36,724 nt of DNA from positions 1 through 36,724 of the IMG/VR virus record IMGVR_UViG_3300005935_000054; one strand, given 5' to 3'. Shown piece by piece: positions 5,598-31,831 of the stretch; position 1 is the first letter of the stretch; the number at the start of each line of letters is the position of its first letter. Origin of the DNA: a virus. Under the pieces are notes generated by a model that worked only from the letters and a program-made list of their open reading frames with translations, searched no databases and had not been told where the DNA came from. Both the position numbers and the translations under genes were made by a program.

Positions 5598-7673
5598 TTA
5601 AATTTCATTAGTTGTTCTAATATCTATAAATGTAAATGCGTATAATAAAAAATCTTCATCGGCTGCATCTGTTGTTAGCCCAAGTTTTATTGATTTCCAT
5701 TCATCCCTTATATTTAATATTTCATCGAATTTTCTATTATTAGCATCCTTCTCGCTTGAAAAGTCTATATCTTCTGTATCAGCGTCATCTTCTTGACCAT
5801 CATACACAACATTGAAAGTAAATTTATTATCATACGTAGAGTTGAACCAAGACAAGATTTGTTCACAGTTTTTTATCCTTGAACTAGCAAAGGTCATATC
5901 AGGAAACCATAAAGCAGAATCTATAGCAGTGCTATCAAAGGTAGCTCCATCATCTTCTTTATAAATCTTTCCGGTTGATGTTCCTGTATAAATTTCACCC
6001 TTAAAATGACAAGCGCATGTTATTGCGTTAGCTTCCCTCGTAGTCCATATTGCTTTAGCTCCAGTATCTTGATTTATAAAATTAACTACATACGCCTTAT
6101 AGAGCGTTGTATTACCCGTTACTGGAATATAGCACCATATTTGTTTACGCTTTTCATAAGGTACTATTATAATATCGTCTAATCTATCTTGGTCTATCTC
6201 CTCGAGCAAATTAGCTATTTTATAACTTAAAGGACTTTTGAATTGTACTTGTGATATGTCGCCTGTTACTTCAATAGGATATAACCCACTATTGAAAAAA
6301 GTATAAATTTTCTGATCCAGTTTACAATTAGCAAATTTTGAAAAAATACCGTGCCCTGACCACATGTCAAATTTAAAGTCAGATGTATCATGTCCTGATA
6401 AGTAGTAAACATCGGATGTTGTGAATATAAGAAGATAACAACCAAAAACTTTCATATCAATTATTGTGCCATTAAAATCTACTTTATTACCAGCATCCTG
6501 TGCCGTTGTCCAGTCAGTCATTGATCCGGCAGCAGTCCAAAATATAGACGTGCCATTTGCTATAAAGATACGTCCATGAAATGCAGCTCCGCAAGTTCCA
6601 TATACTTCTTTAGCGGTATAAAATCCTGTTTGACTTATTGTAGTACCATCATCTATAAATGGGTCATCTGCTCCAGTAATACATATTAAATTACTCTTAA
6701 ACTGGAAGAAATAAGGAGTAGTACCAACAATTGATCCCTTTGCTGGGTTTTCATCTTCAGATACTGTATATTGGAATACCGTATCATTATCATTTCCTAC
6801 TATATACATTGTAGTACCATCTGGTTTAAAGAATACGGCAGAAAGTGTTGTATCCTCACTACTTATGTCTTTGCTCTTAGAATCATAACTAGCTGTTGAT
6901 ATATCCCACGCTGTTGATAGTGTATACTGATAGACCGTATCATTATCATTTCCTGCTATATACATCGTAGTACCATCTGGTTTAAAGAATAATCCACGTG
7001 GTATTGTATCCTCACTACTTATGTCTTTACTCTTGCTGGCATAGCTGGCAGTTGATACATCCCATGCTGTTGATAGTGTATACTGGAAAATTGCATCATT
7101 AACATCTCCTCCTACATACATTGCAGTACCATCCGGTTTAAAGAATACACCCGTAGATGCTGCTATTTGACTACTTATGTCTTTACTCTTGCTGGCATAG
7201 CTGGCAGTTGATACATCCCATGCTGTTGATAGTGTATACTGATAGACTGTAAGATTAGCACTCCCAATTATATACATCTTAGTGCCATCTGGATTAAAGA
7301 ATAAGGCATCAATTCTATCTTCTTGACTACTTACATCTTTGCTCTTAGAATCATAACTAGCTGTTGATACATCCCATGCTGTATCTAAAAATGCAATTGT
7401 GCCACCACTTTCACTAATTCTATAATAATTACCATTATCGTCTATACCAGCCATACTAAAAGCACCTGATACTTCATGCTCTGTTAATCCTACCCATCCA
7501 CCAGAAGCAAGTTCAAGTTTAGAAGTTTGACCCCTCCCTCTTCTTATTGTTTTGCCCAATATATCTATATTCTTGGCTTCGTCACAGTACAAAATCCCTG
7601 CTTCTTTTTCAATACCAAAGGATTCTCTCGCGTCAAGTCCACCAAAAACTTTAAATATATTTTTATCTGCCAT
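5598..7673 (-). CDS. P22 gp10-like DNA stabilisation (tail hub) protein with beta-propeller repeats
   Basis: The N-terminal 60 residues (FGGLDARESFGIEKEAG, then CDEAKNIDILG) and the C-terminal half (tail-hub-like beta strands with VYYLSGHDTSDF and IWCYIPVTG) look like the packaged-DNA stabilisation or hub proteins that plug the portal vertex in podoviruses. Between them, residues about 99-306 hold four 52-residue repeats of the form AWDVSTASY-SKSKD(I/V)SS-FFKPDGT-MYI-G-ND-VYQYTLS, likely beta-propeller blades. Repeats 2 and 3 are almost identical in DNA as well, so duplication is recent. The start overlaps the preceding small gene by 11 nt. Total length (691 aa) exceeds the usual gp10 (about 470) by roughly the repeat block. 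Confidence 0.65.
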   Translation of the reverse strand: MADKNIFKVFGGLDARESFGIEKEAGILYCDEAKNIDILGKTIRRGRGQTSKLELASGGWVGLTEHEVSGAFSMAGIDDNGNYYRISESGGTIAFLDTAWDVSTASYDSKSKDVSSQEDRIDALFFNPDGTKMYIIGSANLTVYQYTLSTAWDVSTASYASKSKDISSQIAASTGVFFKPDGTAMYVGGDVNDAIFQYTLSTAWDVSTASYASKSKDISSEDTIPRGLFFKPDGTTMYIAGNDNDTVYQYTLSTAWDISTASYDSKSKDISSEDTTLSAVFFKPDGTTMYIVGNDNDTVFQYTVSEDENPAKGSIVGTTPYFFQFKSNLICITGADDPFIDDGTTISQTGFYTAKEVYGTCGAAFHGRIFIANGTSIFWTAAGSMTDWTTAQDAGNKVDFNGTIIDMKVFGCYLLIFTTSDVYYLSGHDTSDFKFDMWSGHGIFSKFANCKLDQKIYTFFNSGLYPIEVTGDISQVQFKSPLSYKIANLLEEIDQDRLDDIIIVPYEKRKQIWCYIPVTGNTTLYKAYVVNFINQDTGAKAIWTTREANAITCACHFKGEIYTGTSTGKIYKEDDGATFDSTAIDSALWFPDMTFASSRIKNCEQILSWFNSTYDNKFTFNVVYDGQEDDADTEDIDFSSEKDANNRKFDEILNIRDEWKSIKLGLTTDAADEDFLLYAFTFIDIRTTNEI

Positions 7674-18513: not shown

Positions 18514-18542
18514 ATTATAGTATTAATTGTACTTTGTGTCAT
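18514..18542 (-). promoter_or_regulatory. Promoter for terL block, ATGACA-17-TATAAT
   Basis: On the minus strand the -35 ATGACA is at 18542-18537 and the -10 TATAAT at 18519-18514, 17 nt apart. It drives the interrupted small gene and the large terminase. A perfect 20-bp palindrome begins 18 nt upstream of the -35, a good position for a regulator. Confidence 0.65.
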
Positions 18543-18560
18543 TTTAATATCCTTTTTAAT

Positions 18561-18627
18561 TTAATCCCGTACGGGATTAAAAACTGTTATTTTACTTTAA
18601 TTTGTCAAATTAATCCCGTACGGGAAT
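18561..18627. repeat. Twin CCCGTACGGG palindromes, candidate operators
   Basis: TTAATCCCGTACGGGATTAA at 18561-18580 is a perfect 20-bp palindrome. A second copy at 18610-18627 shares the first 16 bp and has a 12-bp perfect core. Centres are 49 bp apart, close to five helical turns. They flank the -35 side of the promoter at 18514-18542; the second copy also encodes the last codons of the upstream gene. GC-rich 10-bp cores stand out in this AT-rich DNA. No loop is present, so protein binding is likelier than a terminator. Confidence 0.7.
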
Positions 18628-18957
18628 GCCTACTAAACTAATAGAACTAATGAATTTAACAATTATTCCGCTTTCTATACAATACTTAATCTCTTTTTCC
18701 ATGCCACCTGTTATCTTATGCCCAAATACCCACAATTCATCACAGACCTTTAGAAATTCAATACCTCCATTAATACCGGCATTTCTTTCTTCTTCTATAT
18801 TATCATCTAAAAATCTAGTAAAAAACAAATGTGGTGCATACGGCGCATGCCCTAAATCACTAACGTATTTACAATAGGTTTCTGCTTTCTTTTGATTGCC
18901 TTCTAAATCACCTCTTAATGGTGAACATACAAATATTCTTTTCATTGTTTTATTCAT
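18610..18957 (-). CDS. DUF4406-like (nucleoside 2-deoxyribosyltransferase-fold) protein
   Basis: The 115-aa protein has the features of this family: KRIFVCSPLRGDLEGN at the start, CKYVSDLGHAPYAPHLFF in the middle, then FLDDNIEEERNAGI and VCDELWVFG. The family shares the Rossmann-like fold of nucleoside 2-deoxyribosyltransferases, and its phage members may act on nucleotides or modified bases, which is unproven. It overlaps the upstream gene by 8 nt, and AAAGGAG precedes its ATG. Its last codons lie in one of the CCCGTACGGG palindromes. Confidence 0.7.
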   Translation of the reverse strand: MNKTMKRIFVCSPLRGDLEGNQKKAETYCKYVSDLGHAPYAPHLFFTRFLDDNIEEERNAGINGGIEFLKVCDELWVFGHKITGGMEKEIKYCIESGIIVKFISSISLVGIPVRD

Positions 18958-24463: not shown

Positions 24464-24502
24464 AAGAGTATGAATTAATACAGGAGCAAAGGAGACAAAA
24501 AA

Positions 24503-24865
24503 ATGACAAATACTTTAAAAATCGGCATCTGCGAAGGGCGTCATGAAATACCTGGTGTAACTAAATACATTTTTGGGCGAGAAATTGCCCCTGAACTCCT
24601 CATTAACCCTGAGGAGCTGGAGAAAATGGCAGAGAAAGCTCTGCTATCTATAGCAGAATATAGTTCTGCTATAGATAGCGCATGGAAAACATGCGCAAAA
24701 TCCTTTGCAGAGCGGATTAGTCTGCCCTGCATACATGTATATGCGACGGGTTTAACCGTCGCTTTGCTGGCAACATTGAATGCCCTGCGTGATGCAGGGT
24801 GTGAAGTCATAGTCATGCACTATGACCGCGAAAAAGGGGAATATTATCCTCAAAGGATAGCTTAA
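24503..24865 (+). CDS. Unknown 120-aa protein, coding DNA built of consecutive hairpins
   Basis: GGAG lies 8 nt before the ATG. Recognisable stretches are KIGICEGRHEIPGVTKYIFG at the start and HVYATGLTVALLATLNALRDAG then HYDREKGEYYPQ at the end. I recall similar unannotated proteins in gut bacteria and phages; the strand-TG-helix pattern faintly recalls Rossmann/CARF-like CRISPR accessory proteins (Csx16 style), which is a guess. GC is well above the neighbours. Nearly the whole gene consists of adjoining inverted repeats, the largest with 16-bp arms (24643-24658 and 24664-24679). The stop codon lies inside the terminator hairpin. Divergent from terS, it looks like an independent cargo gene (moron). 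Confidence 0.75.
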   Translation: MTNTLKIGICEGRHEIPGVTKYIFGREIAPELLINPEELEKMAEKALLSIAEYSSAIDSAWKTCAKSFAERISLPCIHVYATGLTVALLATLNALRDAGCEVIVMHYDREKGEYYPQRIA

Positions 24866-25265
24866 GCTATCCTTTTTTATTGTAGTAAATAAAAGAGGTA
24901 AAACAAAATGGAAAATAAAATAATAATAAAAACCCCATTTGGGGAAGTGGAAAAAATTGAGCGAGAAAGAATGTGCGGTCAGTATAGACCAAGCATGCAT
25001 ATTGAAACAGTCTACATGCTAGACGGGGTGGAATATGATGGTATTTATGCCCTGCTTTGTGCGGCTCTCGAAGCCTGCGCAACCAGCGAAGACTGCGAAA
25101 GGCTTCAAACAGCCTTTTATAAGGCTGAAAATAAAAGGCTGTTTGAAAATGCTCAATACCAAAAGCTTGTTGAGCACATAAAAGGTAGTTTTAAGCTGCC
25201 TAAAAGTTATCGAAATTCCGATAACAGCTTTGACGCTGTTAAAATAGTTAACGATGAAATTATCG
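24575..25265 (+). repeat. Array of about 25 adjoining inverted repeats across two genes
   Basis: Arms seen, in order: 24575/24587 (4 bp), 24596/24611 (6), 24629/24639 (6), 24643/24664 (16), 24678/24690 (7, GCGCATG), 24707/24721 (5), 24729/24740 (5), 24743/24756 (7, GCGACGG), 24783/24794 (6), 24806/24819 (8, GTCATAGT), 24855 terminator. In the next gene: 24933/24941 (4), 25010/25020 (5), 25063/25072 (4), 25070/25100 (7), 25104/25131 (17), 25150/25170 (7), 25183/25196 (6), 25206/25219 (7), 25222/25235 (7), 25238/25248 (5), 25251/25262 (5). Many share their last 2-3 nt with the next repeat. Loops are mostly 4-6 nt. Confidence 0.7.
24855..24878 (+). terminator. Intrinsic terminator
   Basis: GGATAGCTT (24855-24863) pairs with AAGCTATCC (24864-24872) as a perfect palindrome, followed by TTTTTT. 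It contains the stop codon of the upstream gene, and the downstream gene at 24908 has its own GAGGT ribosome site, so read-through would be needed for co-transcription. Confidence 0.75.
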
Positions 25266-25717
25266 TGTCGTATTACAATTGCGATACCGGTACATCGTCA
25301 ACTAGCAGAGGAAGAGAGGGCTTTGATGATGCCTTAAAACTCTTTCAGGCAATCGGCCGGGAAAACGCTGAAAATGTCCAAATTAAAAAAATTACAGAAA
25401 TTACAGAAATTGAAAAAGCTGAATTTGTTGAGTTAATAGACTCAACGTTGAAAACAAAAAAATTAATAAAATGGAATGTCCTTGATGAAGATGGACTGAA
25501 AGACAGAAGGGACGATGGAGAATTTCCACTGTACATAAAAAAAATTAATAATAAATATGTAAATTTGTTATTAAAACTATTGATAAAAAATAAGATTAAT
25601 AATTTTGTTTTAATCCCAATAGTTAAAACAGGGGAGTTTTGGTTAGCTACTCTGGCTAACGAGGATGATAATTTTGGAGAAAAATACAAAATTATCAAAA
25701 TGTTAAAATCTTTTTAA
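24908..25717 (+). CDS. Unknown 269-aa protein, mosaic composition
   Basis: AAGAGGTAAAACAAA precedes the ATG. The first 160 codons (to about 25380) continue the higher-GC, inverted-repeat-rich DNA of the upstream gene; residues 40-75 form an Ala/Cys-rich helix (YALLCAALEACATSEDCERL). After a short tandem repeat of TTACAGAAA (about 25391-25410) the base composition becomes AT-rich like the rest of the phage, and the protein becomes Lys/Ile/Asn-rich (LLLKLLIKNKINNFVLIPIV). Two further repeats (25427/25440 and 25642/25655) occur in this half. No domain recognised. It may be a fusion of an imported half with a resident gene. Confidence 0.65.
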   Translation: MENKIIIKTPFGEVEKIERERMCGQYRPSMHIETVYMLDGVEYDGIYALLCAALEACATSEDCERLQTAFYKAENKRLFENAQYQKLVEHIKGSFKLPKSYRNSDNSFDAVKIVNDEIIVSYYNCDTGTSSTSRGREGFDDALKLFQAIGRENAENVQIKKITEITEIEKAEFVELIDSTLKTKKLIKWNVLDEDGLKDRRDDGEFPLYIKKINNKYVNLLLKLLIKNKINNFVLIPIVKTGEFWLATLANEDDNFGEKYKIIKMLKSF

Positions 25718-30946: not shown

Positions 30947-31104
30947 AACAAATATCAATTAGCATACCTAATGAGGTTCTAGAAAAATTAGATAAATGTG
31001 TCAAGTGGGATTTTGACAACCGGTCTAAATTTATTGTATCAGCTATCGTAGCGAAAATCAACAAAAGCTATGAGGAGAGGATACTAGATGAAATACACGA
31101 TTGA
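30943..31104 (+). CDS. Ribbon-helix-helix DNA-binding protein
   Basis: The 53-aa protein is almost exactly one RHH domain: a beta strand KQISISIPNEV, helix A (LEKLDKCVKW), an RSKF turn and helix B (IVSAIVAKINKSY). Such dimers repress their own operon. The palindrome on the promoter at 30585-30602 is the obvious candidate site. It overlaps both neighbours (4 and 17 nt), so it is made with the initiator. Confidence 0.75.
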   Translation: MKQISISIPNEVLEKLDKCVKWDFDNRSKFIVSAIVAKINKSYEERILDEIHD

Positions 31105-31831
31105 AGGATATTCACAAAAAGAAGCTCTTTCCTTAGGGTTAGATATTACTGATCTATTAATTCTGAGGTGGATACAAGATTTTTATCCAAATATGACTAA
31201 AAAGATAATCAACGAAAAAGAATATGCTTGGATAAACTATAAATATTTCCTTGAAGATATGCCATTGCTTGGCATTAAAACAAAGGATGGATTATATAGA
31301 AGACTTAAAAAAATTGAAAGTGTTGGATTATTGGAAAAATGTTGTGAAAGAAATAAAACAGGAGTTTATTCATATATCCGCATAACTGGCGATATAACTA
31401 AGCTTACATCCTCCACCCCCATACGGATGAAAATCCGTAACCATACGGATGAAAATCCGTATACCCATACGGATGAAAATCCCGATCATAATAATAAGTC
31501 TACTATAATAGATCCTTCTACTAAAGATACTAATGGGAATCTTTTAGAAAAATTATGTAGTACTAATTATATAACAGCGGAATTTAAAACCATTGTACAG
31601 GTATGGTTGGACTACAAGAAAGCAGAAAAAAGACAATCCTATAAGACTGAAAGGAGCTTGAAAGCATTCATTGATATGCTAAATGAGTACTCCCAGAATG
31701 ACAACAAAAAAGCAGAAACTGTTATAAAAAACGCGATGGCAAATAATTATATGGGTATAGTGCCATTAAAAAATCAGAGTAAGCCTAAAGAAAGCCTTGA
31801 GGAGCTAAGAAATGACGGATACAATTTCTAG
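31088..31831 (+). CDS. Replication initiator with internal iterons (lambda O-like role)
   Basis: The N-terminal 110 residues form a winged-helix part (LLILRWIQDF, then TKDGLYRRLKKIESVGLLEK), typical of DnaD/RepA/O-type initiators. A low-complexity linker (residues about 112-135) is encoded by three iterons (31420-31482), where the protein should bind. The C-terminal part (QSYKTERSLKAFIDMLNEYS) would bind the helicase loader encoded next. GAGGAG precedes the ATG. It overlaps the downstream gene by 20 nt. Confidence 0.75.
   Translation: MKYTIEGYSQKEALSLGLDITDLLILRWIQDFYPNMTKKIINEKEYAWINYKYFLEDMPLLGIKTKDGLYRRLKKIESVGLLEKCCERNKTGVYSYIRITGDITKLTSSTPIRMKIRNHTDENPYTHTDENPDHNNKSTIIDPSTKDTNGNLLEKLCSTNYITAEFKTIVQVWLDYKKAEKRQSYKTERSLKAFIDMLNEYSQNDNKKAETVIKNAMANNYMGIVPLKNQSKPKESLEELRNDGYNF
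31420..31482 (+). repeat. Three iterons, probable replication origin
   Basis: CATACGGATGAAAATCCGTA occurs at 31420-31439 and 31442-31461, and its first 17 bases again at 31466-31482. Starts are 22 and 24 bp apart, about two helical turns. Each holds an inverted repeat (TACGGAT-GAAA-ATCCGTA). They lie within the initiator gene and encode a repeated HTDENP peptide. This matches the lambda layout of origin inside gene O; AT-rich DNA follows. Confidence 0.75.

Follow-up and report, generated by a model that had tools for sequence, protein, structure and literature searches.

Why would a virus spell a small gene as a run of inverted repeats? The window, i.e. the complete stretch of 36,724 nucleotides of viral DNA analysed here, contains such a gene at 24503-24865 on the + strand, for which the original prediction offered selection for structure, snap-back template switching, or a transcript that is itself the active molecule as possible reasons. 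Based on the ORF, its homologues, AF2 models with their fold matches, and folding z-scores we describe this hairpin-chain gene as probably encoding a stand-alone CARF/SAVED-like protein of 120 aa, a candidate ring nuclease or cyclic-oligonucleotide sponge.

The gene 24503-24865 is a chain of hairpins

A purine-rich ribosome-binding region (aggagcaaaggagaca, 24482-24499, +) is located 5' of the ATG and is weakly structured (local z -0.3 for 24481-24600). Perfect hairpins, i.e. hairpins with arms of at least 6 bp and loops of 3-12 nt, are found across 24596-24875, as expected for a gene composed of adjoining inverted repeats. That hairpins occupy almost the whole gene holds for most of its length, but not for the first ~90 nt, which show little local structure. 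Seven perfect hairpins with arms of 6-16 bp lie within the gene, and an eighth holds the stop codon and enters a T-rich terminator. On the + strand the chain begins with 7-bp arms at 24596-24616, followed by 6-bp arms at 24629-24644 that have a GC in common with the next hairpin at 24643-24679. The latter has, as predicted, perfect 16-bp arms, separated by a 5-nt loop, and reaches into a protein segment missing in all relatives; the hairpin at 24678-24696 (7-bp arms, GCGCATG/CATGCGC) lies within this lineage-specific insert. A hairpin with 5-bp arms (GCATA/TATGC, 24729-24744), read from the sequence, shares a GC with the following one at 24743-24762, whose 7-bp arms (GCGACGG gtttaa CCGTCGC) fall within the conserved motif ATGLTVA. 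Two further hairpins, one with 6-bp arms (CCCTGC/GCAGGG, 24783-24799) and one with 8-bp arms that spans the HYD motif (24806-24826), precede an intrinsic-terminator-like hairpin with a T run at 24852-24882, which can be drawn either with 10-bp arms at 24852-24875 or as a 12-bp palindrome and has the stop codon inside. The boundary bases said to be common to consecutive repeats are present in the sequence at 24643-24644, 24678-24679, and 24743-24744.

The folding z-score, proposed originally as a check, bears out the structure: the minimum free energy is -145 kcal/mol as compared to -95.1 +/- 5.7 kcal/mol in dinucleotide shuffles (z -8.7; 0/100 as good), and codon-preserving shuffles have a mean of -100 kcal/mol with -120 kcal/mol as the best of 150 (z about -7.4, and -7.5 in another set of shuffles). 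The complement reaches z -7.9 against dinucleotide shuffles. One might argue that these values reflect the composition of a GC-richer gene acquired by an AT-rich genome, as the GC content is 0.44 in the gene and about 0.31 in its flanks, but shuffles of the same composition, be they dinucleotide- or codon-preserving, do not reproduce the fold, which refutes this explanation and leaves it with next to no probability.

In a 120-nt sliding scan the region is among the strongest folds of the window, and its density of perfect stems ranks second among the 1,505 phage ORFs examined. The structure is fine-grained, i.e. 65% of all 36-nt windows of the gene fold below -8 kcal/mol (19% in shuffles) and only 2% are weaker than -2 kcal/mol (10% in shuffles), and the antisense, the strand that a guide RNA would carry, behaves in the same way. 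The mean accessibility of 8-nt windows is not below that of shuffles (z -0.1). The message shows a folding excess over codon-preserving shuffles along its length, by which ordered RNA structure in coding regions is recognized, and Rfam has no match to any part of the window at an E-value of 0.5.

Other folded genes and regions in the window

The original prediction went too far in stating that the ordinary genes of the window show nothing similar, as the gene at 24908-25717 (+) and ORF 31088-31831 are enriched, too. The former codes for a protein of 269 aa with no family match and no phage match, is also extreme (z -11.7 against dinucleotide and -8.5 against synonymous shuffles), and contains a perfect 17-bp hairpin at 25104-25147 (+), so that the phenomenon spans two genes. 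Searches of IMG/VR, phages, and plasmids found no close relatives of either gene that would allow a paired-change test, and the terminase relative L080 is too distant to serve as close relative for covariation.

ORF 31088-31831, which is situated immediately upstream of an ORF for a DnaC-like ATPase and could hold a replication origin, has 63 stem bp where 18 are expected and a local z of -6 at 31411-31530. A strong local fold (z -5.1) at 18541-18660 falls between the terminase gene and the ORF that follows. The tail-like ORF 5598-7673 carries near-identical, beta-propeller-like repeats (YQYTLSTAWDVSTASYxSKSKDIS).

A virus protein family with a predicted CARF/SAVED-like fold

Direct homologue searches with the window protein found nothing, and the family was identified by scanning virus contigs with a degenerate DNA pattern that encodes YxTGLTVAL. 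Seven of the proteins found in this way and the window protein constitute alignment A1, and a search with A1 yields L019-L032 from virus contigs and L033-L037 from bacterial genome contigs. The family is present in the Fusobacterium phages JD-Fnp1/4/6/7 and Fnu1 and, among the matches obtained here, occurs almost only in viruses. Its signature is CxGRHxIP...YxTGLTVAL...HxDRxxGxYYPQ with invariant R13, H14, G83, H106, Y114, and Q117, and, judged from this conservation, R13, H14, H106, Y114, and Q117 are candidate catalytic or binding residues. As compared to its closest relative, L019, the window protein carries an additional stretch at about residues 52-75, which is of low confidence in the model and into which the 16-bp hairpin reaches. 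On L028, a 206-kb phage contig, 4496-4915 is likely a further family gene (LNIGLCKSQETP...), divergent from the first one and close to it; it is also folded (z about -5) and has lost the GRH motif.

Neither Pfam nor PHROGs has a curated family for the members tested, Pfam gives no match to PF08960 (STIV_B116-like) for the window protein, L023, and L029, and a sequence search of the PDB finds no match. NCBIfam assigns none of 17 members to a named family, and none of its CRISPR family models matches at an E-value of 0.1. Matches to CARF or SAVED profiles are not significant at the sequence level, Pfam and NCBIfam giving none and PADLOC weak ones, confined to one or two members, to SAVED4 (E 0.011) and Csx1 (E 0.0055).

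AF2 models of the window protein and of the canonical member L023 have a pLDDT of 79 and 93.7, respectively, and for both proteins CARF and SAVED domains dominate the VIA-align lists, e.g. Cap5, SAVED-CHAT, Csa3, Can2, Csm6, and 9r8s, a viral SAVED ring nuclease. For L023 the ten top-ranking VIA matches are all CARF/SAVED (Z 6.2-7.4, rmsd 2.6-3.2, 88-91 of 91 residues). As Z stays below 8 and no Foldseek E-value is below 0.001, the CARF/SAVED fold is a good lead rather than proof. From the modelled fold and the precedent of small ring nucleases (PMC12409355, PMC12830947, PMC12751052) we infer that the window protein is a stand-alone cyclic-oligonucleotide-binding or -cleaving protein.

Hairpin density recurs in part of the family and peaks at the family gene

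For the family we calculated z_syn, i.e. local folding (pairs within 50 nt) against codon-preserving shuffles. The 22 genes have a mean z_syn of -3.5 and nine of them are below -4, although these homologues are not independent of each other and several statistics were tried. The strongest values belong to L028 (-10.8), L021 (-7.4), the window gene (-6.3), L023 (-6.2), and L022 (-5.4), followed by L029 (-5.3), L031 (-5.1), and L019 (-5.0). About half of the family is not strongly folded, with z_syn close to zero in L030, L034, and the copy of Fnu1.

Control genes from T4, SPO1, and crAss001 have a mean z of -0.81 with 1% below -4, and none of 421 ORFs of these three phages exceeds a perfect-stem z of 6. 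Small genes on the same contigs but more than 8 kb away have a mean z of -0.82 (p 2.7e-6 vs the family), and those at a distance of 0.4-4 kb one of -1.81. Hairpin z is 4.7 at the family gene and falls with distance to 2.1 (up to 1 kb), 1.1 (1-3 kb), and 0.5-0.8 (farther away), i.e. the enrichment is centered on the family gene and fades out over ~3 kb (5/5000 permutations).

Some neighbors are strongly folded, too. L039:14781-15185 (= L023:8-412), directly upstream of a family gene, has the top stem density of the 1,505 phage ORFs, and L075:976-1473 of phage JD-Fnp4, an unrelated hypothetical gene ~2.5 kb upstream of a family gene, has z -9 to -12, whereas the JD-Fnp4 family gene is not folded.

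The hairpins are built by synonymous codon choice

Each homologue has hairpins of its own, which differ in position and sequence. L021 and L031, for example, have other hairpins over the LYxTG part of the motif that the window spells as a 7-bp hairpin. Hairpin arms cover 14.3% of the nucleotides that encode highly conserved protein columns and 11.9% where the columns are variable, as compared to 5.5% and 4.3%, respectively, after synonymous shuffling. As the positions vary, yet the arms are as dense in invariant columns, the hairpins are built by synonymous codon choice.

The variability bears directly on the suggestion that the transcript is active by itself, as decoy, trigger, or template, with the protein as a partner. 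A message that folds very strongly along most of the gene would suit such a role, but nothing in this structure is conserved, several homologues retain the protein and have no hairpins, which was to count against a specific structure, and Rfam offers no match, so that this suggestion has become very improbable.

An origin at the level of DNA would require that snap-back template switching perfected imperfect palindromes in fast-evolving accessory genes, the structure being a mutational by-product. This would agree with stems that are mostly Watson-Crick and nearly strand-symmetric, with the position of the 16-bp perfect arms, which lie partly within the lineage-specific insert, and with one JD-Fnp4 hairpin that appears newly perfected by a cluster of changes. 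However, the arms are not depleted in invariant protein columns, and clusters of changes between JD-Fnp1 and JD-Fnp4 are not enriched for template switches, reverse-complement clusters (22) being no more frequent than the mirror (29) and direct (39) controls.

Strand preference is also at odds with a DNA-level origin, as the sense strand folds better than the antisense strand in 18/22 family genes (p 4e-4), exceeding a small general bias in controls. The window gene has no such bias (z -6.3 sense, -6.8 antisense), and the bias is absent in a larger set that was chosen by Watson-Crick hairpins and whose coding strands are uncertain. G-U and A-C mismatches occur at 15:7 in a set chosen, and thus biased, by sense folding and at 17:22 in a strand-neutral but strand-uncertain set. 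Taken together, snap-back switching may have had a part in the origin of the 16-bp hairpin, yet it does not explain the family-wide pattern; as sole cause the original suggestion is disfavored, and we consider an essentially mutational origin rather unlikely.

Some genes of a type III anti-CRISPR family share the trait and an anti-Thoeris family does not

As the predicted fold suggested a counter to cyclic-nucleotide signalling, we examined two known anti-defence families of phages, AcrIII-1/Crn2, the type III anti-CRISPR ring nuclease, and Tad2, which counters Thoeris. Of 25 AcrIII-1/Crn2 copies seven have z below -4, and among the 12 from phages of bacteria it is five. Hairpin-dense copies are found in the phages L213, L214, L215, phiFN37, and phiKSUM and in the bacterial genomes L206 and L209; all five archaeal-virus copies, most chromosomal copies, and most copies overall are not folded. 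The AcrIII-1 gene of L213 is an eight-hairpin chain with z about -9 and the only strong fold at its locus, the neighbors ranging from +1.8 to -2.3. Among the 54 non-redundant Tad2 genes the mean z is -0.52 and no gene falls below -4 (Fisher p 1.7e-4 for AcrIII-1 vs Tad2; the gene sets come from different phages and lineage effects are possible). No copies of Tad1/Acb2 were found as a further control. In Fusobacterium phage Fnu1 (L079, L218) a gene annotated as DUF1874 (AcrIII-1) occurs together with one of the new family, and neither is hairpin-rich. We found no description of hairpin-dense anti-CRISPR messages in the open-access literature.

The Tad2 result also speaks against a DNA-level origin, and it bears on a further alternative, according to which hairpins generally protect short early accessory mRNAs from host or phage RNases, or tune their translation, with no link to type III CRISPR. 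The folding of 24908-25717 and of several unrelated neighbors is in favor of such a general benefit, as is the family-wide sense preference. Tad2 genes, however, are likewise small viral accessory genes and do not show the trait, nor do the genes of T4, SPO1, and crAss001, and at the L213 locus the AcrIII-1 gene alone is folded. Overall, we regard generic protection as a minority possibility, about as probable as the mutational origin.

A possible role in the evasion of RNA-guided defence

The explanation that we tentatively prefer, while giving it somewhat less than an even chance, is a ring-nuclease-like anti-defence gene whose message structure is selected, perhaps because it hinders RNA-guided recognition or RNases. 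Selection for structure, as originally proposed, is supported by the extreme score against codon shuffles, the recurrence of hairpins in the family and in AcrIII-1, arms that are equally dense in invariant columns, and the sense preference of the family, although not of this gene. What we observed directly is the structure, its coding in synonymous sites, its recurrence in the family and AcrIII-1, and that Tad2 and ordinary phage genes virtually lack it. The folding of 24908-25717 and some other neighbors counts against the explanation, as do the family members and AcrIII-1 copies that are not strongly folded and the missing sense bias of the window gene and of the larger set.

Mechanistically, the stand-alone CARF/SAVED-like domain would probably bind or cleave a cyclic oligonucleotide second messenger, and the virus may thus use the protein to counter type III CRISPR (or CBASS) signalling, a function predicted from its fold. 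Selection acting via synonymous codons would give the message a succession of short stable hairpins along most of its length. This message would have to be translated at a time when guides of the host pair with phage RNA and ribonucleases, activated by the signal, destroy RNA, and the hairpins might be of benefit if every protospacer-length stretch folds onto itself, both in the message and in the matching guide, rendering recognition or decay more difficult. The unchanged 8-nt accessibility means that a simple version, in which no single strand is left, fails. In its boldest form, the idea amounts to a 'guide-proof' code, in which synonymous codons make almost every protospacer-length stretch of type III CRISPR antidote genes self-complementary, message and crRNA both fold, and the gene resists detection, and which evolved repeatedly, i.e. 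in the CARF-like family and in AcrIII-1. This bold form we think improbable.

What emerges is an extreme property of coding sequences linked to a class of function, as hairpin-dense spelling marks part of AcrIII-1 and a virus family, unnamed so far, whose predicted fold is that of cyclic-nucleotide sensors, but not the anti-Thoeris family Tad2. If this link is true, message structure is a new layer of the arms race between phages and CRISPR, and a folding score against codon shuffles could help to find anti-defence genes that lack homology. Even under another mechanism, selection on mRNA structure that is strong and position-free would be unusual in DNA phages.

Comparison with known systems

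The family resembles CARF/SAVED sensors (Cap4, Cap5, Csa3, Can2, Csm6) and AcrIII-2, a viral SAVED ring nuclease (PMC12751052), in its predicted whole-domain fold with Z up to 7.4. It differs from them as it comprises only ~90 residues and no effector domain, has 6-18% identity, and has its own conserved R-H, G, H, Y, and Q. Small stand-alone ring nucleases are known with Csx16, Csx20, and Crn4, of which Csx16 and Csx20 are CARF-like, whereas the fold reported for Crn4 is unrelated to those of known ring nucleases (PMC12409355, PMC12830947). The new family is of comparable size and has conserved His and Arg as in Crn4, but it was found here almost only in viruses, and none of the 17 members compared with NCBIfam matches a CRISPR model.

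With AcrIII-1/Crn2 (PF08960), which degrades cyclic oligoadenylate, the window gene has in common that it is a small phage gene and that several AcrIII-1 copies are hairpin-dense as well. The two are, however, unrelated in sequence, the cyclic-nucleotide function of the window protein is predicted, and most AcrIII-1 copies are not hairpin-rich. Finally, RNA viruses and RNA phages have ordered RNA structure on the scale of their genomes, with coding-region pairing by synonymous choice at positions that are not conserved, whereas the structure described here is limited to single genes of double-stranded DNA phages.
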